Positions 20,300-39,487 of a stretch of DNA of 64,000 bases are shown here, in pieces; the stretch's first letter is position 1, and every line of letters begins with the position of its first letter. The position numbers were made by a program, and so were the translations under genes. Source of the stretch: Streptomyces sp. NBC_01353 (lineage in GTDB: Bacteria > Actinomycetota > Actinomycetes > Streptomycetales > Streptomycetaceae); NCBI RefSeq assembly GCF_036237275.1, contig NZ_CP108352.1, forward strand, positions 7,961,501 through 8,025,500, written 5' to 3'. The notes below the pieces were generated by a model. The model saw nothing but the letters and a program-made list of their open reading frames with translations, had not been told where the DNA came from and ran no database searches.

Positions 20300-21934
20300 T
20301 TACGGCCCGTCCCGGCGCAGCATCAGCAGCGCGGCATCGTCCTCCGCGTGGGGGCCCGGGGTGAGCGTGTCGAGGAGGTGGTCGGCGAGCTCCTCCAGAT
20401 CGGCCGGGCCTGCCGAGAACGCGGCGGTCAGCCGGGCCAGGCCTCGGTCGATGTCCTCGCCCGGCCTCTCGACCAGGCCGTCGCTGTACAGCAGCAGGGT
20501 CTCGCCCGGAGCCAGCCGTGCCGAGGTCGGCGGATACGGCGTGAGGCCCCAGTCGGCCGGGAGCCCCAGCGGCGGACCGCCGGCCAGCTCCAGACGGTCC
20601 ACCGTGCCGTCGGTTTGGCGCAGCAGCGGCGGCGGATGGCCCGCGTTGGCCGCGTCGACCGCGCCGGTGGCGAGAGTGATCCGCAGGTACTGGCAGGTGG
20701 CGAAGCGGTCGGCGCCCAGCTCGGCGAGGAAGGCCGACGCCTTGGCGAGGACCCACTCGCACGGATGGCCCTCCGCCGCGTACGCGGTCATGGCCACGCG
20801 CAACTGCCCCATGAGCGCCGCCGCCTCGGTGTCATGGCCCTGCACGTCCCCGATGGCCACGCCCACCGCGCCGTCGGGCAGCGTCACCGCGTCGTACCAG
20901 TCCCCGCCGACCCGCACCCCCTGCCGCGCGGTCCGGTACCGCACGGTGATCCGCCCGCCGGGGGTCTCGGGGATCCTGCGCGGCAGCATGGCGTTCTGGA
21001 GACCGGCGGCGATCTCCCTCGAACGGTCGAGCATCGTGACCCGGTGCAGGGCGCGGGCCACCGCCTTCGACCACGCGGTCATCAGGGTGTGGTCCGCGAG
21101 GGAGAACGAGTTCGTGTTCTCGTAGAACATGCCCATGGCGCCGAGCGGCTGCCCCCGCTCGACCAGCGGCAGGAACGCGGCGGCCGTCGCGTGGAAGCCG
21201 TGCTGGTGCGGCGCCAGCCGCGGGTAGCGGTCGAGGAAGTCGGGCACCGACGTGAAGAAGAGTGGCCTGGCGGAGCGTACGACGTCGTTCAGCGGCCAGG
21301 AGTCGGCGAGCCGGGACTTCTGCGGGGGCTCGGTGTCGTCCAGGGACAGCACGGTGCGGACGAGACGGAGTCGGCCCTGCTCGAGCACGGCGAGTGACAT
21401 GGCCTTCACTCCGAGCCTGCGCAGGCACGGCTCGTCGCCGAGGACCGCGGCGACCTCGCGCACGCTCATCGCCCGGGCCAGGGCGATCGCCGCCTCACCC
21501 AGGGCGTGCAGGTGATCGCTGTCCTCGTCGGCCGGCGGCCGAAGCGACGAGTGCGACAGATCCAGGGTGGCGTCACGGACCACCCCCACGACCCGCGTGG
21601 GCCCGTCCGCGCCGTCGCGCACGACGTTCCCCCGGACGTGTGTCCAGCGGCTGCGACCGTCGTGGAGGGCGACGCGGAAGTAGGCGCTGTACGCGTCCTT
21701 GCGGCCGCCCCGCAGCTCCGCGGAGAGACCCGACAGCAGTGTCCAGTCGTCCCGGAGGATCTTGGGCCGGAGGTCGGTGGCCAGCCCGTGGTACTCCCCG
21801 GGGAGCAGATCGAGCGCGTCGCGGCCCACGGGATCGAGGATCAGCTGTCCGGTGGCCGGCACCCAGAGGAAGCAGCCCACGCCTGTGACGGCGAGCGCCT
21901 CCCCGCGGTCCAGCCGCGGTTCCGTGTCGCGCAT
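20300..21934 (-). CDS. PAS-GAF-PP2C (SpoIIE-type) serine phosphatase
   Basis: 544 residues from ATG 21934; sequence further upstream lacks family features. A short PAS-like region (residues 20-115, with TGVGCFLWVPATGQLILDP and SRWTHVRGNVV) is followed by a GAF domain (about 150-310) and the PP2C SpoIIE domain (about 325-540). The phosphatase metal motifs are visible: VGGDWYDAVTLPDGAVGVAIGDV with the Asp residues, GHDTEAAALMGQLR, ANAGHPPPLL, LLLYSDGLVE and DDAALLMLR. Such proteins dephosphorylate anti-anti-sigma factors in response to a sensed signal. No anti-sigma partner is adjacent. It is the first of three phosphatases of this kind in the window. Confidence 0.92.
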   Translation of the reverse strand: MRDTEPRLDRGEALAVTGVGCFLWVPATGQLILDPVGRDALDLLPGEYHGLATDLRPKILRDDWTLLSGLSAELRGGRKDAYSAYFRVALHDGRSRWTHVRGNVVRDGADGPTRVVGVVRDATLDLSHSSLRPPADEDSDHLHALGEAAIALARAMSVREVAAVLGDEPCLRRLGVKAMSLAVLEQGRLRLVRTVLSLDDTEPPQKSRLADSWPLNDVVRSARPLFFTSVPDFLDRYPRLAPHQHGFHATAAAFLPLVERGQPLGAMGMFYENTNSFSLADHTLMTAWSKAVARALHRVTMLDRSREIAAGLQNAMLPRRIPETPGGRITVRYRTARQGVRVGGDWYDAVTLPDGAVGVAIGDVQGHDTEAAALMGQLRVAMTAYAAEGHPCEWVLAKASAFLAELGADRFATCQYLRITLATGAVDAANAGHPPPLLRQTDGTVDRLELAGGPPLGLPADWGLTPYPPTSARLAPGETLLLYSDGLVERPGEDIDRGLARLTAAFSAGPADLEELADHLLDTLTPGPHAEDDAALLMLRRDGP

Positions 21935-21945
21935 GCGTGGTCCGG

Positions 21946-22140
21946 TCAGCGCCGTGCGCGCTGACGGGCGATGTACAGGCCGAGGACGATCCCCACGAGG
22001 AGCGTGACCGTGAGGACGCTCCAGAGGGGCAGGGTGACGGTGGGGATCCACAGTCTGATCGTGACCGACCCCGTGTTCGCGGCGATGAACCAGATCGCCA
22101 GGACTGCGAGGACCACGAAGGCGATCGTGCGCAGACGCAT
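21946..22140 (-). CDS. Small LapA-like (DUF1049) membrane protein
   Basis: 64 residues from ATG 22140, which has AAGGG upstream; an in-frame ATG at 22203 would add 21 polar residues. Two transmembrane segments: TIAFVVLAVLAIWFIAANTG and LWSVLTVTLLVGIVLGLYIA, with the between-strand pattern NTGSVTIRLWIPTVTLP typical of LapA/DUF1049 proteins, and a basic RQRARR tail. It ends 12 bases before the start of the phosphatase gene on the same strand, so the two are probably cotranscribed. Function in Gram-positives is unknown. Confidence 0.8.
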   Translation of the reverse strand: MRLRTIAFVVLAVLAIWFIAANTGSVTIRLWIPTVTLPLWSVLTVTLLVGIVLGLYIARQRARR

Positions 22141-22241
22141 GTCCCGGCCCTTGTAGGACAGGGTCGAGTGGGGATGAGGCGGAGCTGCTGCCTTACGGCT
22201 CATGAGGTCCATTATCGGCCGTTTTGCCCAGGACCTCGACC

Positions 22242-30329: not shown

Positions 30330-30857
30330 ATGTACGTCGAGAAGCTGCCCAAGACCTGGACCGTCCTCTGCGTCGCCGTCTACCTGGCGATGGTCGTCCG
30401 GCTGGGAGTGGACGCGCTGCCCGAGGACACCGGCGTCTGGCTGCTCGTGTCGGCGGCCTACCTGCTGGTCCTGGTGCCCTGCATCGCGGTCCCGATCTCG
30501 AAGGCGATCTACCACCGCGTCCGCGTCGACCCGGGCAGCGGCCTGCTCCGCGTCGGCCGCGAGCGCATCCCCCTCGCCGACATGGACCCCGACTCCGTCC
30601 ACGCGGCGCTGCGACTCGTGAAGCCCCGCGCGGGCTGGCGGTACGCGGCGTCGGCAGGCGCGGTGCAGAGCCCCCTCGCCGGCCTGCAGGCGGCCGACCG
30701 CAGCGCGCCGCGGCTGGTCGGCGGCGGCTGGGCCGTGCCGATGGGGATGGACAGCGTGGTCGTCACCACTCGCCGGGGCGAACGCCTCGTGATCGCGACC
30801 CATGACGGTGCGGCCCTCCTCACCGCCCTGGCCCGCGCGCTCGCCCCCACGCCCTAA
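30330..30857 (+). CDS. Small membrane protein (DUF3093-like)
   Basis: 175 residues; ATG 30330 is chosen because the predicted protein starts with the two-helix membrane anchor (WTVLCVAVYLAMVVRLGVDAL and VWLLVSAAYLLVLVPCIAV) and GACCGAGGAA lies upstream. The soluble part has a PH-like strand pattern (YHRVRVDPGSGLLRVGRERIP, DSVVVTTRRGERLVIATHD, LLTALARAL), similar to DUF3093 proteins of actinobacteria. Function is unknown. Its stop overlaps the stop of the convergent phosphatase gene by four bases. Confidence 0.75.
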   Translation: MYVEKLPKTWTVLCVAVYLAMVVRLGVDALPEDTGVWLLVSAAYLLVLVPCIAVPISKAIYHRVRVDPGSGLLRVGRERIPLADMDPDSVHAALRLVKPRAGWRYAASAGAVQSPLAGLQAADRSAPRLVGGGWAVPMGMDSVVVTTRRGERLVIATHDGAALLTALARALAPTP

Positions 30858-31999
30858 GCGGCGCTCCTACGCTCCGGTGCCAGCCGCTCGATCGCGACGA
30901 GCGCCGCGTCGTCGCCGAGGTGGCCGCCCGCGTACGCGTGGAGGTCGTTCCGGAGATGGCCGAGCAAGGTCTGCGGGTCGTCCCCCGCCCATGCCGCGAG
31001 CCGCTCGACCAAGGGGTAGAAGGCGCGGTCGCGGCTGCGAGCCTCGATGACACCGTCGGTGTACAGCAGCAGCACGTCCCCGACGTCGAAGGGAAAGGAC
31101 TCCACGGCTACCACGGGGGAGAGGACGTCCGCGAGCCCCAGCGGCGGGCTCGGTTCGGCGCTGTCGAGGGCGACGACCCGCCCCTTTCGCAGGAGCAGCG
31201 GCGGGGGATGCCCGCAGTTGGCAAGCCGCACGACCGGCTCGTGATCGGGGATGTCCAGCACCAGTGCGGTGACGAACGCCTCCTGGGCCTCGTCGTCCAC
31301 GGACATCCCGACCTCGTCCGCGCGTTCGTCCGCCTCGGCCGAACCGACACCGGCCTCCAGGTGCCGGATCAGTTCGGGCAGCTCCCGCTCCCGGCGGGCG
31401 GTGACGCGGAAGGCGCCGAGCACGAGCGAGGCCTCGCTGATCGCGTCGAGCCCCTTGCCGCGGGCGTCACCGATCAGCAGCCTCGTCCCCGACTTCGTAC
31501 GGGCGGCCGCGTACAGGTCGCCGCCCATCTGCGCCTCCTCCTCCGCCGCCAGATAGATCGAGGCGATCCGCAGCGGACCCGACCGGCGGGGGAGCGGACG
31601 CAGGACGACGCTCTGCGCGGCCTGCGCGATGGAGCGCAGCTGAGTCACTTTGCTCTCGTGCGCCTCGCGCAGGTACGCGAAGAAGGTGACGATGATCGAG
31701 ATCAGGATCAGCGCGGCGATCTGATACGTGTGGTTGAGGTCCGTCAGACTCGTCCGCACGATCGCCACCACCGCCTGCGCGAGGACCGCGACCGCGCCCA
31801 CGAAGGCCGTCATCCGAGGACCGGCGAACGACGCCGTCACCGCCGGCGCGGCGATCAGGAACGGGCCGAGATGGACCTCCGGCGGCAACAGGATGTCCAC
31901 CACCGTGACCGTCGCGATCAGCGCGAAGGGAGCGGCAAGAAGCAGTCGCCCACCGCGCCGGGAGAGGCGGGGTGCGAAGCCTCGCGGCCGGGGATCCAT
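30854..31999 (-). CDS. Membrane-anchored PP2C (SpoIIE-type) phosphatase
   Basis: About 381 residues from ATG 31999. No start has a good ribosome-binding site; ATGs at 32029 and 32077 are alternatives and would add 10 and 26 residues. The N-terminal third has four to five membrane helices (LLLAAPFALIATVTVVDIL, GPFLIAAPAVTASFAG, TAFVGAVAVLAQAVVAIV, IAALILISIIVTFFAYL). The rest is the SpoIIE phosphatase domain: EAQMGGDLYAAARTKSG, LIGDARGKGLDAI, NCGHPPPLLL, LLLYTDGVIEARS and DDAALVAIERL. The membrane part resembles the 5TM group of SpoIIE phosphatases common in Streptomyces. No anti-sigma gene is adjacent. Confidence 0.9.
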   Translation of the reverse strand: MDPRPRGFAPRLSRRGGRLLLAAPFALIATVTVVDILLPPEVHLGPFLIAAPAVTASFAGPRMTAFVGAVAVLAQAVVAIVRTSLTDLNHTYQIAALILISIIVTFFAYLREAHESKVTQLRSIAQAAQSVVLRPLPRRSGPLRIASIYLAAEEEAQMGGDLYAAARTKSGTRLLIGDARGKGLDAISEASLVLGAFRVTARRERELPELIRHLEAGVGSAEADERADEVGMSVDDEAQEAFVTALVLDIPDHEPVVRLANCGHPPPLLLRKGRVVALDSAEPSPPLGLADVLSPVVAVESFPFDVGDVLLLYTDGVIEARSRDRAFYPLVERLAAWAGDDPQTLLGHLRNDLHAYAGGHLGDDAALVAIERLAPERRSAA

Positions 32000-32092
32000 G
32001 GGAAAGGCATACCGCAGGTGGTGGGGCATGTCCTGTTGCCGGGCATTCCGGCGCGGTGTGTCGCCCGGCGACGACATACCGTGATTCGCGGT

Positions 32093-32434: not shown

Positions 32435-33346
32435 TCAGCTGCGGGCCACGGCCGCCGTGAAGTCGGCGAGGGTGCGCCGCGCCCGCCAGCCCTGGCCCTC
32501 GGCCCTGGAGACGTCGAGGACGACCGAGTGGGCCAGCTGGTCCACGGCGTACCGGGTCAGCGCCGGCTCGGTGTGCGGCCGGAGGCGGGACAGGGACTCC
32601 GCGGTGGCGGCCGCGGCGCGCGCCAGGGGCAGCGGAAGTCGGCGGATCCTCGCGTGTACGCCATGGGCGCGCAGGACGGTTCGTACCGCCTCGTCGCGGT
32701 GGTACGGCACCGGGTCCGCGATGTTGTACGCGCCCGGCTGCCAGTCGGCGGCGGAGAGACACGCGTCGGCGAGGTTCTCCACGGCCGTCAGGCTCAGGAG
32801 CACGTCGCGGCCGGGCAGGAGCAGCAGTCCGGCGCGGACGCGGGCGAGCAGCCGCGGCACGAGGTGGGGGTCGCCGGGACCGTAGACCGCCCGCGGGCGG
32901 AGCACCACCGCGCCGGCCGCGAGCGCGAGGGCCTCTCCGGCCGCCTTCGTGCGACCGTAGGCGTTCAACTGCCCGCGCACGGGATGGTCCTCCGCGATCC
33001 GGGCCCGACTCGGCCCCGGGGCGTACACGCTGGCACTGCTCACCCAGACCACCGGCCGGCCGGCGGCCGCCTCCAGGAGGTGGGCGGTGCCGTCGACGTT
33101 CACGGCCCGCATCGTTGCCTCGGCCGGCGAACCGGGCACCGGGTCGCCGACGGCCGCAGCGCAGTGCACGACGAGATCGGCGCCGCCCAGGTCGGGCGGC
33201 CCGCACTCGGCGTCCCAACGCACGTGCCGACCGACGGGCCCCGGCCGCCGCCCCACACACAGGACATCGGCACCGCGCGCGGCGGCAAGGACGGCTACAT
33301 GGGAACCGCAGAAGCCGCTGGCTCCGGTGACGGCGATGGTGGTCAT
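32435..33346 (-). CDS. OleD-like NAD(P)-dependent reductase (extended SDR / 3beta-HSD type)
   Basis: 303 residues, ATG 33346. Rossmann motif TIAVTGASGFCGSHVAVLAAARG (shown by its first residues TGASGFCGS), NVDGTAHLLEAA, catalytic SSASVY and YGRTK, and the OleD-typical RAVYGPGDPHLVPRLLARVR, then LTRYAVDQLAHSVV near the end. OleD enzymes reduce the 2-alkyl-3-ketoacid made by OleA to the 3-hydroxy acid. It is the last gene of the operon that starts with an OleA-like KAS III and includes an OleC-like ligase, which supports this role; other sugar-epimerase functions remain possible. About 280 bases with two decayed copies of its own 5' end separate it from the P450 gene. Confidence 0.85.
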   Translation of the reverse strand: MTTIAVTGASGFCGSHVAVLAAARGADVLCVGRRPGPVGRHVRWDAECGPPDLGGADLVVHCAAAVGDPVPGSPAEATMRAVNVDGTAHLLEAAAGRPVVWVSSASVYAPGPSRARIAEDHPVRGQLNAYGRTKAAGEALALAAGAVVLRPRAVYGPGDPHLVPRLLARVRAGLLLLPGRDVLLSLTAVENLADACLSAADWQPGAYNIADPVPYHRDEAVRTVLRAHGVHARIRRLPLPLARAAAATAESLSRLRPHTEPALTRYAVDQLAHSVVLDVSRAEGQGWRARRTLADFTAAVARS

Positions 33347-33416
33347 GTTCGGCTCTCTTGGGCGTGGGGGGCGGCGGTCGGGTGGACGGTCAGCGGCATC
33401 GTCGGTCCACTCTGGC

Positions 33417-33636
33417 GGGGGCTCGCGCGACGAGGACGTGGGCGCCGCCGGCTCCCGTGATGGCGTTCGTCGTCATGCTCGGGACTCGGGGGGAGGTCGG
33501 TGGTCTCGCGTGGACGGCCGGCCCATGCCGCCCGTCGGCGCACCCGGCGGGGAGGACGGTCGGTCGGTGCGGGGCTCGCGCGACGAGGACGTCGGTGCCG
33601 CCGGCTCCCGTGACGGTGTTCGTCGTCATGCTCGGG
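33417..33636 (-). pseudogene. Two decayed tandem copies of the reductase gene's 5' end
   Basis: On the minus strand, ATG 33629 reads MTTNTVTGAGGTDVLVARAP and ATG 33476 reads MTTNAITGAGGAHVLVARAP, both related to the true start MTTIAVTGASGF...GADVLCVGRRP, with the middle deleted. At DNA level the 66-67 base blocks 33417-33483 and 33571-33636 are nearly identical. The first copy's ATG overlaps the P450 stop (ATGA), exactly where the next operon gene would be expected to begin. The two copies are in frame with each other but not with the functional gene. Confidence 0.75.
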
Positions 33637-34759
33637 TCGCCGTACGGACGTCGGCGGTCGTCGCGCGGATGGTCAGCTCGCGCCAACCCGGCAGTGCCGC
33701 GCGGCGATCCACCCGGGCGCGGGCGACCGACGGGCGGTGTGGGGCGAGCGCGGCGAGGAGGTCGTCCAGTTGTGCGCGGGCCAGCCTCGCGCCCGGGCAC
33801 GCGTGGGGGCCGGCGCCGAAGACGAGTTGGGCGACGGCGGGCGGGGCCGGGCTCCGGGCGTCCGGCGGAGTGCTGTGCGCGCCCACGGCATTGCGTGCCA
33901 CCAACACCAGCCGGTCCCCGGCCCGCACCGGGCACCCGCCGAGCGTGGCGTCGGCTGCTGCCACGCGTGGCAGCAGCGGGGACGGGGCGACGACCCGGAG
34001 CAGCTCGGTGACAAGGGCCGGCCGCAGCCGTTCGTCGCCGGCCTGCTCCCACAGCCCGCCGTCCGCACACCACGCGACCGCGCGCGGCAGCGCGGCGACG
34101 GTCGTGTTGACGGCGGCGACGGCGAGCATCGCCCGCAGCCCGGCGTCGTCCTCCCCGCCCGCGAGCAACGCCTCCAGACGGGCCGTCGCCTCGGCCGCCG
34201 CACGGGCGGAGCCCGGGAGCCGAGGGCCGGGCAGATGGTCCCGGACCGCGGCTGCCGCAGCGTCGGCGGCGGCCTCGGCCAGGGCCGACGGGTCGGCGGT
34301 GGTGTCCAGCAGGGCACGGACCGTCGCCCCGGACAACTCGCGTGCCAACGGGACGAGGTCGACCGCGAGGCCCGCACCGAGCGGGGCGAGCCGACGCGCC
34401 AGGACGGCCTGCCAGACCGGCCGCAGCCGCGCCACACCGTCCGCGCCCAGCTCCCCGGCCACGGCCCGCCGGGTGTCGCGGTGCCCCGCGCCCTCCTGGT
34501 CGAACAGCAGCCCGCCGCCCGACAGTTCACGGGCCGCGCCTCCGGTGGTGCCGGCCGCGGCGCGGTCCAGCGGGATCCGGGTGAGGGCCTGACGGTACGG
34601 CTCCGCGCCGCTCACCAGCACGGCCCGGCCGACGCGGACCACCGGCCTGCGCCGGACCGCGGCGAGCAGGGCGAACAGCAGCGGGTGGGAGCGCGTGTAG
34701 ACCCGCCGGTCACGGCGCCGCGCCGCACGCACGCCGGGCGTCGTCGGGATGCCGGTCAC
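33626..34759 (-). CDS. Cytochrome P450
   Basis: 377 residues from GTG 34759, which overlaps the glycosyltransferase stop (GTGA). Heme-binding FGAGPHACPG with the thiolate Cys321 and the K-helix ExxR (E252, R255 in TELLRVVAP) are present. The I-helix reads AVAAVNTTVA: the acid that normally precedes Thr (as in GHETT or GDDT) is Asn218, with Thr219-Thr220. This atypical oxygen-activation site may indicate peroxygenase-like or unusual chemistry. It is short for the family but complete. In the operon it probably hydroxylates or desaturates the lipid product. No ferredoxin is adjacent. Confidence 0.92.
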   Translation of the reverse strand: MTGIPTTPGVRAARRRDRRVYTRSHPLLFALLAAVRRRPVVRVGRAVLVSGAEPYRQALTRIPLDRAAAGTTGGAARELSGGGLLFDQEGAGHRDTRRAVAGELGADGVARLRPVWQAVLARRLAPLGAGLAVDLVPLARELSGATVRALLDTTADPSALAEAAADAAAAAVRDHLPGPRLPGSARAAAEATARLEALLAGGEDDAGLRAMLAVAAVNTTVAALPRAVAWCADGGLWEQAGDERLRPALVTELLRVVAPSPLLPRVAAADATLGGCPVRAGDRLVLVARNAVGAHSTPPDARSPAPPAVAQLVFGAGPHACPGARLARAQLDDLLAALAPHRPSVARARVDRRAALPGWRELTIRATTADVRTATRA

Positions 34760-35535
34760 CGGACGTGCACCTTCCGCGGGTCGCTGGGGCGGTAGCGGCG
34801 ATCCCAGGACCACAGCAGGGTCCGGCGGGCGCCCCACGCCCGCAGCCTGCGCAGGCTCGCCCGCACCACCATCCGCTCGGCCCGCGCGATCCGATCGCTG
34901 TGCCTGCGCGCCCGGTTGAGCAGCACGACGTCCTCGGGCGGCCCTTCCAGCGGCACCCTCGGGGCGCCCCCGCACCGTACGTACAGATCCGCGGTCAGGG
35001 CGATGTTGTGGCCGTGGCACAGGACGTACGGCGTGCGGTAGTGCGGATGCCGGTGCTCCCTGCGCAGGCGCCCGTACACCGCCGTCGCCCGGACCACAGC
35101 CGGCAGGACGTACCGCTCCGCGACGGAGGGGGACTCGTCGGGGCGCGGGATGCTGCGCCCGCAGGCCATCTCCGCGCCCCCGGCGAACGCCGCCTTCGCG
35201 GCGGCGATCCAGTCACGAGCCGGCAGACAGTCGGCGTCCGTACGCACCAACAGCGCGGCGCCCCCGGCGATGGCGTACCGGAACCCGGTGTCGGCGGCCG
35301 CCCCCGCGCCGGGTTCGCGCTCCTCGACGAGATGGACGGGGAAAGGCGCGGCGGCGGCGAAGCGCCGCACGATGTCGGGGGTCCCGTCGGTGGAGGCGTT
35401 GTCCACGACGACAAGGGTGAACCGGGTGTCGGACTGCGCCGCGAGGGCGGCGAGCGTCGCGCCGATCGAGGCCTCCTCGTCGAAGGCGGGCACCACCGCC
35501 CACAGAGCCCCCTTCGCCTCCGGAGCGGCCGTCAT
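34756..35535 (-). CDS. GT2-family glycosyltransferase
   Basis: 259 residues, ATG 35535, overlapping the ligase stop by four bases (ATGA). The GT-A fold is clear: LWAVVPAFDEEASIGATLAAL, the nucleotide-binding VVVDNASTDGTPDIV, the DxD-like RTDADCLPARDWI near residue 100, GAEMACGRSIPRP, and the acceptor-side GPPEDVVLLNRAR with a conserved acidic pair. There is no membrane anchor. It is related to the second GT2 gene of the operon (shared VVVPA, DNAS, TDADCLP and NRxRR blocks), so the two are paralogues. Confidence 0.9.
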   Translation of the reverse strand: MTAAPEAKGALWAVVPAFDEEASIGATLAALAAQSDTRFTLVVVDNASTDGTPDIVRRFAAAAPFPVHLVEEREPGAGAAADTGFRYAIAGGAALLVRTDADCLPARDWIAAAKAAFAGGAEMACGRSIPRPDESPSVAERYVLPAVVRATAVYGRLRREHRHPHYRTPYVLCHGHNIALTADLYVRCGGAPRVPLEGPPEDVVLLNRARRHSDRIARAERMVVRASLRRLRAWGARRTLLWSWDRRYRPSDPRKVHVR

Positions 35536-37010
35536 CGGGCAGCACCCGTGGTGCGGGCGGCGGCCAGCCTCGCCGTCGCCGCCCGGTCGGGCTTCGACGA
35601 GCGGCCGGACAGCGGGATGTCGGCGAGCAGCAGCGCGTCCGGACGCGCTGCGCCCATCCGCTCCAGCGGCCCGGCCAGCGCTGCGCGCACCCGGCTGTGG
35701 TCCGCCGCCCGGCGCGGCTGGACGACGGCGACGAGCCGCTCGTCCCCGTCCCCGGCCGGAAAACCGACCAGCACGGCCAGTTCGACACCGGGCACGTGCA
35801 GCGCGGGTTCGTAGAGACCCGGGTAGATGTTCTCCGCCCGCCGCAGGACCATGTCCTTGCAGCGGCCCTCCAGGACGATACGGCCTTCGTCGTCGAGGCG
35901 AGCCCGGTCGCCGGTGTCGACCCAGGGCGTCGGCTGCTCGCCGAGGTAGCGGTCCCGGGCCGCCGGACCGGACAGCGACAGCTCCCCGGTCGACCGGGTC
36001 TTGGCCTCGACCCCCGGCAGCGGCGCGCCCACCAGATCGCCCTCGCCGCCGAACGCGGCCTTGTCCGCCTGCTCGACGGCCGCCGCCGGGAACAGCTCCG
36101 TGAGCGCGTACACACCCCATGCCTCGTCCGCCCCCGCCGCCTTCACCCGCGTGAGCAGCTCGGCGCTCGCCGGCGCGGAGCCGGTCCACACCCGACCGGT
36201 GAACCGCGCCTCCTCGGCCAGTGCCGCCCGTAGTTGAGGAGGCGTCAGATAGGTGGCCTGCGGCGCCAGTCGGCGCAGCTGCCGCGCGAGGACGCGCGGC
36301 GATCGGGCGGGCAGCGCGACCGGCGCACCGCTCGCCAGGGACGGTACGAGGACGAAGAACGTACCGCCGAGGACCGGGCGACCCGGTTCGGGCGCCACGA
36401 GGTCGGTCACCGTGGCCATCCCGGCGGCCAGCGAGGAACGGGTGTGGACCACCGCGCGGGGCCGCGAGGTGGTGCCCGAGGTGAAGACGATGACCGCGTC
36501 GCCGTCCCCGTCCACCGGGCGCGGCAGGACCGCCGTACCGGCGCCGCTGTCCAGCGCGGGGGCGCTGCCCGGCAGCCGGCGGCCGACCGTGGCCACCGGT
36601 CCGAGCTCGGCGAGGTCCGGCAGCGCGAGACGGGCCCGGCGGGCCAGCGGCCTCGCCCATCCCGCGACCGCCTGCGCCGTCGCGTCGGCCAGGACCACGT
36701 CCGGGCGGGCCAGTGCGAGCCGGGCGCACAGGACGTCCGGGCCGGCCGAGGGGTCGAGGACCGCGGCGCGCAGTCCCAGCCGGTGCACGGCGAGCATCAC
36801 GGCCAGCGCGCGCGGCCCGGGCCGTACCGCGACACCGACCGTGCCGCCGCGCGCGATTCCGCGCGCGTGCAGGGCGGCGGCGTACGAGTCGGCGAGATCG
36901 GCGAGCTCCCCGCAGGTGGCCTTCGTACGGACGGCGCCGGTGCGCGTGGTGCCGAGAACGGCGGGCCGGTCGGGGTGCGACCGCAGGGTGTGGGCGAGAG
37001 CGTCCAGCAT
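35532..37010 (-). CDS. AMP-dependent acyl ligase, OleC (beta-lactone synthetase)-like
   Basis: 492 residues, ATG 37010, sharing one base with the upstream stop (TGATG). ANL-superfamily motifs: A3 VIVFTSGTTSRPRAVVHT near 170-190, A5 WGVYALTELFPAA near 320, A7 WVDTGDRARLDDEGRIVLEGR, A8 KDMVLRRAENIYPG, and the C-terminal catalytic Lys in SGRSSKPDR. The TELFPAA A5 box and the company of OleA- and OleD-like enzymes resemble OleC, which adenylates a 3-hydroxy acid and closes it to a beta-lactone. A plain fatty acyl-CoA or acyl-ACP ligase is the main alternative. Confidence 0.85.
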   Translation of the reverse strand: MLDALAHTLRSHPDRPAVLGTTRTGAVRTKATCGELADLADSYAAALHARGIARGGTVGVAVRPGPRALAVMLAVHRLGLRAAVLDPSAGPDVLCARLALARPDVVLADATAQAVAGWARPLARRARLALPDLAELGPVATVGRRLPGSAPALDSGAGTAVLPRPVDGDGDAVIVFTSGTTSRPRAVVHTRSSLAAGMATVTDLVAPEPGRPVLGGTFFVLVPSLASGAPVALPARSPRVLARQLRRLAPQATYLTPPQLRAALAEEARFTGRVWTGSAPASAELLTRVKAAGADEAWGVYALTELFPAAAVEQADKAAFGGEGDLVGAPLPGVEAKTRSTGELSLSGPAARDRYLGEQPTPWVDTGDRARLDDEGRIVLEGRCKDMVLRRAENIYPGLYEPALHVPGVELAVLVGFPAGDGDERLVAVVQPRRAADHSRVRAALAGPLERMGAARPDALLLADIPLSGRSSKPDRAATARLAAARTTGAAR

Positions 37011-37750
37011 CAGCGCGGGTCCTCCCCGTGACGGCCCGGGCCCTTGTCGAGGTACCAGCGGGCGGTTCCGACGATTCCGTAGGCGCGCAGGCGCCGGGTC
37101 GAGTTCTCCACCACCATGTCGCGGGCGTGGACGATGGCGGTCGTGCGCCGCCGCACCCGGTTCAGGAAGAGCCGGTCGGTGGGGGAGGGGCGGCGGGGCA
37201 TCCCGCCGACGGCCTCGTACAGTCGCGCGGTGATGGCCATGTTGTTGCCCGCGTGCATCCGGTACGGCGCCAGATAACCGTTCCCGCGCCGGTGCGCGGG
37301 GCGCACCCGGCCGAAGAACGCGGCGACGCGCACGAGCGTACGGAACAGGGCGCGGCCCAGCGGCCCGTGCTCGTCCCGGCGGGCGTCGATGCGCCCGCAC
37401 ACCAGTCCGGCGCCGCTCCGCAGCGCGCCCCGGGCCGCCGCCGTCCAGCCGGGGTGCGGCAGACAGTCGGCGTCCGTGCGCGCGAGCAGTGTGGCCCCGC
37501 GCCCGATCGCGAACCGGAACCCGGTGTCGACGGCGCAGCCCACGCCCTTGTCCCGCTCGTCGAGCACATGGACGGGGAACGGCGCCCGCTCCGCGAAGGC
37601 GCGGGCGATCGCGGCCGTGTCGTCCTCGGAGGCGTTGTCCACCACGACGAGTTGGAAGTCCCGGTCCGTCTGCTCGGCGAGCGCCGCCAGCGTGTCGCCG
37701 ATGCGCGCGGCCTCCTGATGCGCGGGCACCACCACCCACAGCGCGCTCAC
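37010..37750 (-). CDS. GT2-family glycosyltransferase (paralogue)
   Basis: 246 residues; GTG 37750 is chosen because it overlaps the KAS III stop (GTGA) and has GGGAGAAGG upstream. GT-A motifs: LWVVVPAHQEAARIGDTLAAL, VVVDNASEDDTAAIARAF, RTDADCLPHPGW, and SPTDRLFLNRVRRR. It parallels the second GT2 gene two positions downstream, with the ligase between. Donor and acceptor cannot be read from sequence. Two paralogous transferases could attach two sugars, or work as a pair. Confidence 0.9.
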   Translation of the reverse strand: MSALWVVVPAHQEAARIGDTLAALAEQTDRDFQLVVVDNASEDDTAAIARAFAERAPFPVHVLDERDKGVGCAVDTGFRFAIGRGATLLARTDADCLPHPGWTAAARGALRSGAGLVCGRIDARRDEHGPLGRALFRTLVRVAAFFGRVRPAHRRGNGYLAPYRMHAGNNMAITARLYEAVGGMPRRPSPTDRLFLNRVRRRTTAIVHARDMVVENSTRRLRAYGIVGTARWYLDKGPGRHGEDPR

Positions 37751-38775
37751 GCCTTCTCCCAGACCATCGTCATGATGCTGACACCGCCGCCGAGACCGAC
37801 GAACAGGACCCGGTCTCCCGGGCGCAACCCGTCGTGTATCCGGTCGAGTTGCACGCCCAGGCTCGCGCTGGCGATGTTCCCGAGCTCCGGGACGGTGACC
37901 ACGAGCCGGTCCCTGGGGACGCCGGTGATCTCCACGAAGCGCTCCAGGTACGGCAGGGTGACCTGATGAACCAGGACGTGACGGAAGTGACGCCACTCAA
38001 GCCCCGTACGGTGCCGGACCCGGTCGATCACCGACGTGCCCACCTTCTCGAACACCTCGCGCAGCTCGCTGCCGTCGCCGTGGAAGTACGTGTGCTCGTC
38101 GCCGCGCGGATGGCGTGAACCGCCGCCGAATATCCCGCCGACGCGCCAGTGCTCGGAGTGGGTCTCGCTGTCCACGTCGAGGATCCCGCCGCGGTCCACC
38201 GCTTCGAGGACCACCGCCGCGCCCGCGTCGCCGAAGGTGTAGCCGGCGAAACCGTCGCGGAACTGGGCCAGATCGGCCGGGTCGTGCCGGACGGCCCGGC
38301 TCGGCGTCTCACCGGTGACGACGAGGGCCCGCCGGGCGCGCCCCGCAAGGATCATGGTGCGGGCGAGGTCGATGCCGTTGACGAAGCTGTTGCAGGCGTT
38401 GGTGACGTCCAGGGCATGCGCCCGGGAGCCGAGTTCGGCCTGCACGATGTGCGCGGTGGCCGGCTCCACCATGTCGCGCGTGGCGGAGGCGAACACCAGC
38501 AGGTCGATGTCGGCGGGCCCGACCCCGGCCCGCTCCAACGCCTCGCGGGCGGCCCCGACCGCGAGGGTGGAGGCGTACTCGTCCGGCCGTGCGACCCGAC
38601 GGGTGAGGATCCCGGTGGCCCGCTCGAACATCCCGCCAGGCAGCGCGAACCCACTGCCGGCGACCACCCGCTGCCGCAGCTGCTCCGAGTCCACCACCTG
38701 CTCGGGCAGGCAGGAGCCGGTCCCGGTGATCCCGACGCGGAGGGGGCCGTCGGCGACGGCATCATGACTTTCCAT
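37747..38775 (-). CDS. KAS III-family synthase, OleA-like
   Basis: 342 residues, ATG 38775; first gene of the operon. The thiolase-fold triad is present: Cys128 in VTNACNSFVNG, His270 in VHQVTLP and Asn300 in ELGNIASAS. Other blocks: LLVFASATRDMVEPATAH and FGDAGAAVVLEAV. OleA condenses two fatty acyl-CoAs head-to-head to a 2-alkyl-3-ketoacid; FabH makes acetoacetyl-ACP; other relatives transfer acyl groups. The adjoining OleC- and OleD-like genes favour the OleA-type reaction, but this is inference. The next gene overlaps it by four bases, and all six operon genes appear translationally linked. Confidence 0.87.
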   Translation of the reverse strand: MESHDAVADGPLRVGITGTGSCLPEQVVDSEQLRQRVVAGSGFALPGGMFERATGILTRRVARPDEYASTLAVGAAREALERAGVGPADIDLLVFASATRDMVEPATAHIVQAELGSRAHALDVTNACNSFVNGIDLARTMILAGRARRALVVTGETPSRAVRHDPADLAQFRDGFAGYTFGDAGAAVVLEAVDRGGILDVDSETHSEHWRVGGIFGGGSRHPRGDEHTYFHGDGSELREVFEKVGTSVIDRVRHRTGLEWRHFRHVLVHQVTLPYLERFVEITGVPRDRLVVTVPELGNIASASLGVQLDRIHDGLRPGDRVLFVGLGGGVSIMTMVWEKA

Positions 38776-38939: not shown

Positions 38940-39326
38940 TCAGCCCAGGGCCGCCATGAATCCGCCGCGGGCGGCCCCGCCCGTCAGCAGGCTCTCCCAG
39001 TCGAGTGCCTCCGGCAGCTCGGGCAGTGAGAGGACGACCGCCCCGCCCGCCCGCTCGACGTCCTCGCACCAGCCCACCATGTCGTCGGGGCTTCCCGAGC
39101 CGCCGAACACCGGCGCCATCAGAGCGGGCACGACGCACCCGGCATCACCGGGGCCGTCCACCACGCACAGCGTGAGCCGGGGCACGACACTCCAGCCCTC
39201 GCACACCGGAACCGTCCCACCGGGCGCGGCCACGGTGGGCAGGTCGGCGTGGACGGGTGCGCCGCCGAGCAGCAGCGCGGGTGTGGTGCCGGGCACGAAC
39301 AGGGTGTTCTCGGGAGGCATGAGCAT
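38940..39326 (-). CDS. Hypothetical protein
   Basis: 128 residues from ATG 39326 (AAAGGG nine bases upstream); GTG 39335 is an alternative. The protein has short strands (NTLFVPGTTPALLLGGAPVH, TVPVCEGWSVVPRLTLCVVD) and a Gly/Asp-rich middle, with VGWCEDVERAGGAVVLSLPEL near the end. No signal peptide or known domain is seen. The 3' end contains AATCCGCCGCGGGCGGC (38958-38974), which also appears at 38889-38905 just beyond the stop: a short direct repeat. Its role is unknown, and it may or may not belong to the KAS III operon that starts 164 bases away. Confidence 0.6.
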   Translation of the reverse strand: MLMPPENTLFVPGTTPALLLGGAPVHADLPTVAAPGGTVPVCEGWSVVPRLTLCVVDGPGDAGCVVPALMAPVFGGSGSPDDMVGWCEDVERAGGAVVLSLPELPEALDWESLLTGGAARGGFMAALG

Positions 39327-39487
39327 GGGCGGCACCCTTTCACAGCCGCGGACCGCGGTGACGGCCGGGGAGTGATCGTCTGTCGCCCGGGAGGTCTCAC
39401 CGGATACGGTGGTCGGAAGATCGTCCTGGAGGGAAGTGACGGGATCATGCGACTCTTGGCGGCCCCCGGCCCTGCGGAGCCCCTGCG

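Follow-up and report, generated by a model that had tools for sequence, protein, structure and literature searches.

An operon of Streptomyces sp. NBC_01353 encodes relatives of OleA, OleC and OleD together with glycosyltransferases and a cytochrome P450. It lies in the window, i.e., the whole stretch of 64,000 nucleotides of contig NZ_CP108352.1 analysed here, which belongs to an 8.57-Mb genome in two contigs. Positions 32435..38775 hold, on the minus strand, six open frames, at the place given by a preliminary description made from the sequence alone: a β-ketoacyl-acyl carrier protein synthase III (KAS III), a family 2 glycosyltransferase (GT2a), an adenosine monophosphate (AMP)-forming ligase, a second glycosyltransferase (GT2b), a cytochrome P450 and an extended short-chain dehydrogenase/reductase (SDR) (Table 1). 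The operon is real, conserved and was rightly read in outline in that description, even if it is not categorically new. Comparisons of its sequences make it fairly probable, in our judgement, that it encodes an OleACD-derived lipid pathway, in which chains joined head to head would be reduced, activated, oxidised and glycosylated. The product would probably be a sugar-bearing β-lactone or hydroxy-acid lipid. The new elements of this work are the phylogenetic support for the three Ole relatives, the catalytic glutamate of the KAS III, the distribution of the operon, the optional character of the second GT2, the divergent subtypes and a doubt concerning the ligase.

The KAS III resembles OleA in its catalytic residues and in its phylogenetic position. 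Cys128, His270 and Asn300, the residues initially proposed, were correct and are invariant in the 77 aligned rows. In the alignment with the chains of Xanthomonas OleA from the PDB, Glu104 (followed by Pro105) matches OleA Glu117 (numbering of 6b2s). A glutamate occupies this position in all type 1 (77/77), type 2 (4/4), stray (2/2) and OleA (10/10) rows, but in only one (L225) of the 30 other KAS III examined, which are a selection out of 64 such matches. According to a study of OleA (PMC7064751, mBio 2020), Glu117 is essential and is present in all but two of the OleAs of that paper. The alignment with the OleA rows, which come from ten Actinomycetota ole loci reached via OleD, also shows the HQV and NAC motifs in the KAS III, and the BLAST scores are higher with OleA (85-118 bits) than with FabH, of which the genome has two (47 and 71 bits). 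In a tree of 46 rows, from which 3 very divergent rows and 8 near-duplicates were omitted, 12 operon-type KAS III (7 type 1, 3 type 2 and 2 strays), 9 OleA and L225 form a single clade apart from the other 24 (support 100/98). The operon proteins are the sister group of OleA and do not branch inside it. L225, which shares the Glu-Pro pair of OleA, sits in this clade at the end of a long branch. In a separate locus, an OleA-clade KAS III with the glutamate (L098:9405-10394) adjoins a single-module polyketide synthase (KS-AT-DH-MT-ER-KR-ACP, L098:1601-9199).

In their trees, the ligase and the SDR fall beside actinobacterial OleC and OleD, apart from other ligases and from sugar epimerases, with weaker support for the SDR. 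The operon ligases join OleC as a sister group (support 100/99) in a tree that includes 13 stand-alone ligases encoded by the same genome (from 51 AMP-binding matches, of which 30 were fetched, excluding domains of non-ribosomal peptide synthetases [NRPS] and odd lengths) and 7 of the 10 OleC (excluding L121, L125 and L126), near-duplicates being removed as well. Alternative placements of the operon ligases were rejected by approximately unbiased (AU) tests, be it with OWN_L151 (p-AU 0.0021), with OWN_L134 (0.00005) or with a group of three ligases (0.0002). The best NCBIfam matches of the SDR are two models of 2-alkyl-3-oxoalkanoate reductases of the OleD type (93 and 86 bits). These scores are below the cut-off of 580, which tells little because none of 296 genomes of the phylum reaches the OleD cut-off (NF042422). 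BLAST gives 60 bits with one of the ten OleDs and 77-104 with the others, against 44 at most with the 16 other SDRs of the genome, and the tree, which took 12 of the 23 matches of the genome, places the operon SDR with OleD (94/93). That the three trees agree is what argues most strongly for a common descent of the trio from an ole-like set. Together with the OleA glutamate of the KAS III, this agreement bears out the kinship with OleA, OleC and OleD that had been proposed.

Several observations weigh against this scenario. The trees have few outgroups and long branches, as flagged by the program, the AU test does not reject the exclusion of L225 from the KAS clade (p-AU 0.214), and the support of the SDR tree lies below the threshold of the program and is weaker than that of the KAS and ligase trees. 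The GPA motif found after the asparagine in OleA is missing after Asn300 in the operon KAS III. The profiles of NCBIfam give the KAS III a slightly higher score with FabH (PRK09352, 176 bits) than with PRK09258 (168 bits, under its cut-off of 285), which we take to be the nearest known model for OleA. They give the ligase 92 bits with PRK09274, 91 with PRK06187 and 61 with the OleC model, and the scores of both proteins are far under the cut-offs. Since the best two models tie, bit scores were dropped as the deciding test for these two proteins. Hence, the profile search suggested in the preliminary description pointed to the OleD type for the SDR, albeit under the cut-off, and failed to separate the KAS III from FabH and the ligase from acyl-coenzyme A (CoA) ligases. 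BLAST does not separate the ligase from others either (72 bits with OleC, 73 with other ligases of the genome). Furthermore, the ligase motifs N[IVL]YPGLYEP and GR[ST]xKPDR, kept in 69 of 69 rows, fit a CoA ligase better, and the letters of motifs A8 and A10 in the eight aligned OleC rows differ from those of all 15 operon rows. These letters argue against identifying the ligase as an ordinary OleC, even if the tree supports the kinship. Finally, PMC7064751 reports that the purified OleA of a similar cluster of Actinoplanes atraurantiacus, 29% identical to Xanthomonas OleA, condensed none of the acyl-CoAs tried; this protein precipitated, yet was active on p-nitrophenyl esters.

Table 1. Features of the operon in the window, with coordinates, in their own loci, for the divergent version of the operon and its neighbours.
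Feature	Position	Strand	Description and evidence
OleA-like KAS III / thiolase-fold condensing enzyme	37747..38775	-	342 aa; translation, Pfam/NCBIfam, PDB alignment, conservation, tree
GT2 glycosyltransferase a (GT2a)	37010..37750	-	246 aa, TDAD motif; Pfam, AlphaFold2, Foldseek, synteny
AMP-forming ligase	35532..37010	-	492 aa; Pfam AMP-binding, motifs, tree and AU tests
GT2 glycosyltransferase b (GT2b)	34756..35535	-	259 aa; Pfam, alignment with GT2a
Cytochrome P450	33626..34759	-	377 aa; Pfam p450, conservation
Spacer with two broken copies resembling the SDR 5' end	33347..33625	-	279 bases
Extended SDR, OleD-like 2-alkyl-3-oxoacid reductase	32435..33346	-	303 aa, YxxxK; NCBIfam, alignment, tree
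Divergent version of the operon with neighbouring genes	L085:304-7016; L086; L087:14333-15466

The Pfam families matched by the six proteins are ACP_syn_III, Glycos_transf_2 (twice), AMP-binding, p450 (32 bits, cut-off 22.8) and Epimerase. The first five genes overlap by 1 or 4 bases, in agreement with the junctions initially described (GTGA, TGATG, ATGA, GTGA), but the SDR is set apart by a gap of 279 bases. This spacer contains two copies that resemble the 5' end of the SDR, begin at 33629 and 33476, are identical to each other at 53 of 57 positions and run into stops. In the relatives, the P450 and the SDR overlap in 42 of 64 loci and are more than 100 bases apart in 8, with start codons taken nearest to the start of the window gene, a choice that favours overlaps. 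As most relatives have the overlap, the spacer copies look like a local duplication.

We found no match to OleB (E<0.1, with queries from two ole loci) in 83 loci, comprising 80 relatives and 3 loci of the same genome, in line with the earlier claim that no OleB-like decarboxylase is present. Therefore, no olefin is expected from the operon. The window has a weak match (E 0.010) around 28 kb from the operon, and the best match in the genome (36% identity, E 6e-15) is around 270 kb away; a decarboxylase may thus act from a remote position in the genome.

The conservation of the operon was analysed in the best 80 loci out of 165 relatives found by a scan with the KAS III, all from genera that we take to belong to Streptomycetaceae or Micromonosporaceae. 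Synteny was assessed in the 68 loci that cover 6.7 kb or more counted from the start of the KAS (the 12 others being too short). The core order KAS-GT2a-ligase-P450-SDR is found on one strand in 66 of them, as measured by tblastn, which counts sequence and not intact genes. More precisely, 36 loci have the order KAS-GT2a-LIG-GT2b-P450-SDR, 30 have the same order without GT2b, and two have less: L079 lacks GT2a, and L052 retains KAS-SDR alone. Under a rule of length and absence of stops, 57 of the 68 loci have each of the five core genes as a whole frame, and the KAS-GT2a junction overlaps in 69 of 74 loci, with the same choice of start codons. We tried to extend the operon to a larger cluster with shared flanks, but the commonest family clearly outside the core occurs in only 10 of the 80 loci, in a survey whose gene picker performs poorly in GC-rich DNA and also grouped shadow frames.

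The operon has a restricted taxonomic distribution. Scoring the best 5 to 10 candidates per genome, we found a KAS III with at least 73% identity in 19 of 199 Streptomyces genomes (including our own) and one with 44-45% in 4 more. In the family of Paractinoplanes, 56 of 200 genomes have a KAS III with 64-74% identity (two with an internal stop) and 11 more have one with 47-50%. In an even draw across the phylum, only 3 of 396 genomes have it, all from the genus of the window. The operon is thus a trait of certain families and not of actinobacteria at large.

The homologues with lower identity reveal divergent subtypes. The four operons examined among those with 44-45% identity (L084-L087) have the order KAS-GT2-P450-LIG-SDR, a single GT2 and an extra P450 upstream. 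Three of these loci were searched (L085, L086, L087), and in them the operon is preceded by a protein resembling flavin-containing monooxygenases (FMO), two proteins of unknown families, a PurF-family protein (over the cut-off in L085) and a fatty acyl-AMP ligase. L085 also has, as judged by eye, an open reading frame (ORF) resembling a carrier protein. A PurM-family gene lies downstream of the operon in L087, and the search for this family gave no match in L086. This subtype seems to connect chemistry of the purine type with that of lipids, and a limited literature search found no paper on it. The four operons examined among the 11 with 47-50% identity (L232-L235) have the same five genes, with an extra P450 placed divergently in three of them, and showed no match to PurF or FMO. 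Since both subtypes hold the five families, this core has been kept through two gene orders.

The two glycosyltransferases are paralogues (52% identity in the alignment). Both are present in the window, as previously described, but the second is not a defining feature: GT2b is whole in 32 of the 68 loci (16 of 45 in Streptomycetaceae, 16 of 23 in Micromonosporaceae). In the other subtypes, the GT2 resembles GT2a and GT2b to about the same degree, which suggests that GT2b may be a duplicate specific to type 1, and the broken genes or remnants in four loci (L011, L019, L053, L077) point to repeated loss. The AlphaFold2 model of GT2a (mean predicted local distance difference test score of 88.5) has its best Foldseek matches in the PDB with the WrtF fucosyltransferase, PcManGT and chondroitin polymerase (16-23% identity). 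These predicted-fold matches are general sugar transferases, from which neither the donor nor the acceptor follows.

The P450 had been described as odd, but its main catalytic residues are ordinary: the heme ligand Cys321, Glu252 and Arg255 of the ExxR motif, and Thr219 do not vary among the 66 rows. Thr219 is preceded by an asparagine in 54 of the 66 rows, at a position that is usually acidic in P450s. The best NCBIfam match is a model of P450-derived glycosyltransferase activators (55 bits, cut-off 343); the invariant cysteine, ExxR and threonine rule out such an activator lacking heme.

If the operon encodes an OleACD-derived pathway, the KAS III would condense two acyl thioesters head to head, with no CO2 released, with Cys128 holding one acyl group and Glu104 of the partner subunit deprotonating the other. 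The SDR would reduce this 2-alkyl-3-oxo acid, and the ligase would adenylate the carboxylate of the 2-alkyl-3-hydroxy acid so formed, leading to β-lactone closure or to transfer to a thiol. Hydroxylation of a chain would fall to the P450 and the addition of sugar to the GT2 enzymes, one or two in number. The sequences show which genes are present, that the trio is related to OleA, OleC and OleD, that the catalytic residues do not vary and that the gene order is kept, whereas we infer the substrates, the order of the steps, the site of oxidation and the sugar. The same applies to β-lactone closure, because the ligase keeps C-terminal motifs resembling those of CoA ligases that are absent from the eight aligned OleC rows. 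These motifs (A8 and A10, in 69 of 69 operon ligases) could also mean that the trio makes a 2-alkyl-3-hydroxy acid while the ligase is a true acyl-CoA or acyl-transfer ligase. The role of the ligase would be to supply the KAS III with an unusual acid, or else to activate the hydroxy acid ahead of its transfer to an ester or amide, and the product would be an open glycolipid and not a β-lactone. The fatty acyl-AMP ligase and the carrier-protein-like ORF (the latter by eye) of the subtype 2 clusters fit this alternative. However, the operon ligase groups with OleC and not with the 13 other ligases of the genome, and β-lactones are known products of OleACD clusters that lack OleB (PMC7064751). 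We regard this alternative as possible, but clearly less plausible than the pathway outlined above.

The slightly higher score of the KAS III with FabH, the presence of two glycosyltransferases and the weak similarity of the P450 to glycosyltransferase activators (55 bits, cut-off 343) could suggest another function. The KAS III might be an acyltransferase of the CerJ or DpsC kind that esterifies a sugar or an alcohol, with the SDR acting on a sugar and the GT2s building an acylated glycan. We consider this improbable given the OleA-type Glu104, HQV and NAC motifs of the KAS III, its grouping with OleA, and the scores of the SDR, which reach 93 bits with the OleD-type model against 42, 34, 32 and 30 with the sugar-enzyme models HpnA, LegB, RmlD and GalE. 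It could also be argued that these are neighbouring metabolic genes without a common product, as no product is known and the flanking genes vary between loci. This is very hard to reconcile with the core order in 66 of 68 loci, which rules out chance neighbours, with the KAS-GT2a overlap in 69 of 74, and with the five families held by both divergent subtypes.

If the operon is indeed an OleACD-derived pathway, around one in ten of the sampled Streptomyces (19/199) and more than a quarter of the sampled genomes of the Paractinoplanes family (56/200) harbour an Ole-type pathway to which no product has been assigned. β-lactones include inhibitors of lipases and of the proteasome, and a glycosylated β-lactone would be an unusual structural type. 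The natural variants would also help to learn what relatives of OleA, OleC and OleD accept. A more speculative and rather doubtful extension is that non-mycolate actinomycetes use an Ole-type route to make a mycolate-like glycolipid (a sugar-bearing 2-alkyl-3-hydroxy acid) or a glyco-β-lactone, i.e., a widespread and chemically unseen class. In one subtype, the same five enzyme families would be coupled with a PurF/PurM-like branch and with a fatty acyl-AMP ligase, leading to a nucleotide-derived lipid.

Elsewhere in the window, a 131-aa ORF upstream of the KAS III (38940-39335, minus strand) has no Pfam or NCBIfam match. The window also encodes a 779-aa protein resembling elongation factor G, possibly of the ribosomal protection type judging from Pfam only (44433-46772), a protein with an RNA ligase domain of the T4 Rnl1 type (1509-2759) and three SpoIIE-type phosphatase proteins (20300-22192, 30854-32077 and 49253-51391).

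The operon shares with the oleABCD olefin pathway of Xanthomonas and Micrococcus the trio of condensing enzyme, ligase and reductase, as well as the catalytic glutamate. It differs by the lack of a match to OleB, by the additional GT2 and P450, and by ligase motifs unlike those of the aligned OleC rows. The lipstatin and N. brasiliensis clusters hold OleACD without OleB and give β-lactones, and the lipstatin pathway also uses an NRPS. Both β-lactone clusters are named in PMC7064751, where lipstatin (from S. toxytricini) involves the pair LstA/LstB, whereas the operon of the window has a single KAS III, plus GT2 and P450. That paper was the only relevant one among the matches listed in our search for the product or the gene set. 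It describes a cluster of A. atraurantiacus with OleA, a glycosyltransferase, OleC, a P450 and OleD, without OleB, for which a glycosylated, hydroxylated β-lactone was proposed and no product was isolated. The view that no such gene set had been described thus does not hold for the five gene types, and the chemical proposal of the preliminary description repeats one already published. The A. atraurantiacus cluster has the same five domain types as the window and the 66 of 68 loci with conserved order, in the same order as listed in the text and equally without OleB; it is listed with one glycosyltransferase, to which the window adds a second GT2. The types of genes listed, the family Micromonosporaceae and the low identity of its OleA, by description and not by sequence, liken this cluster to type 1.

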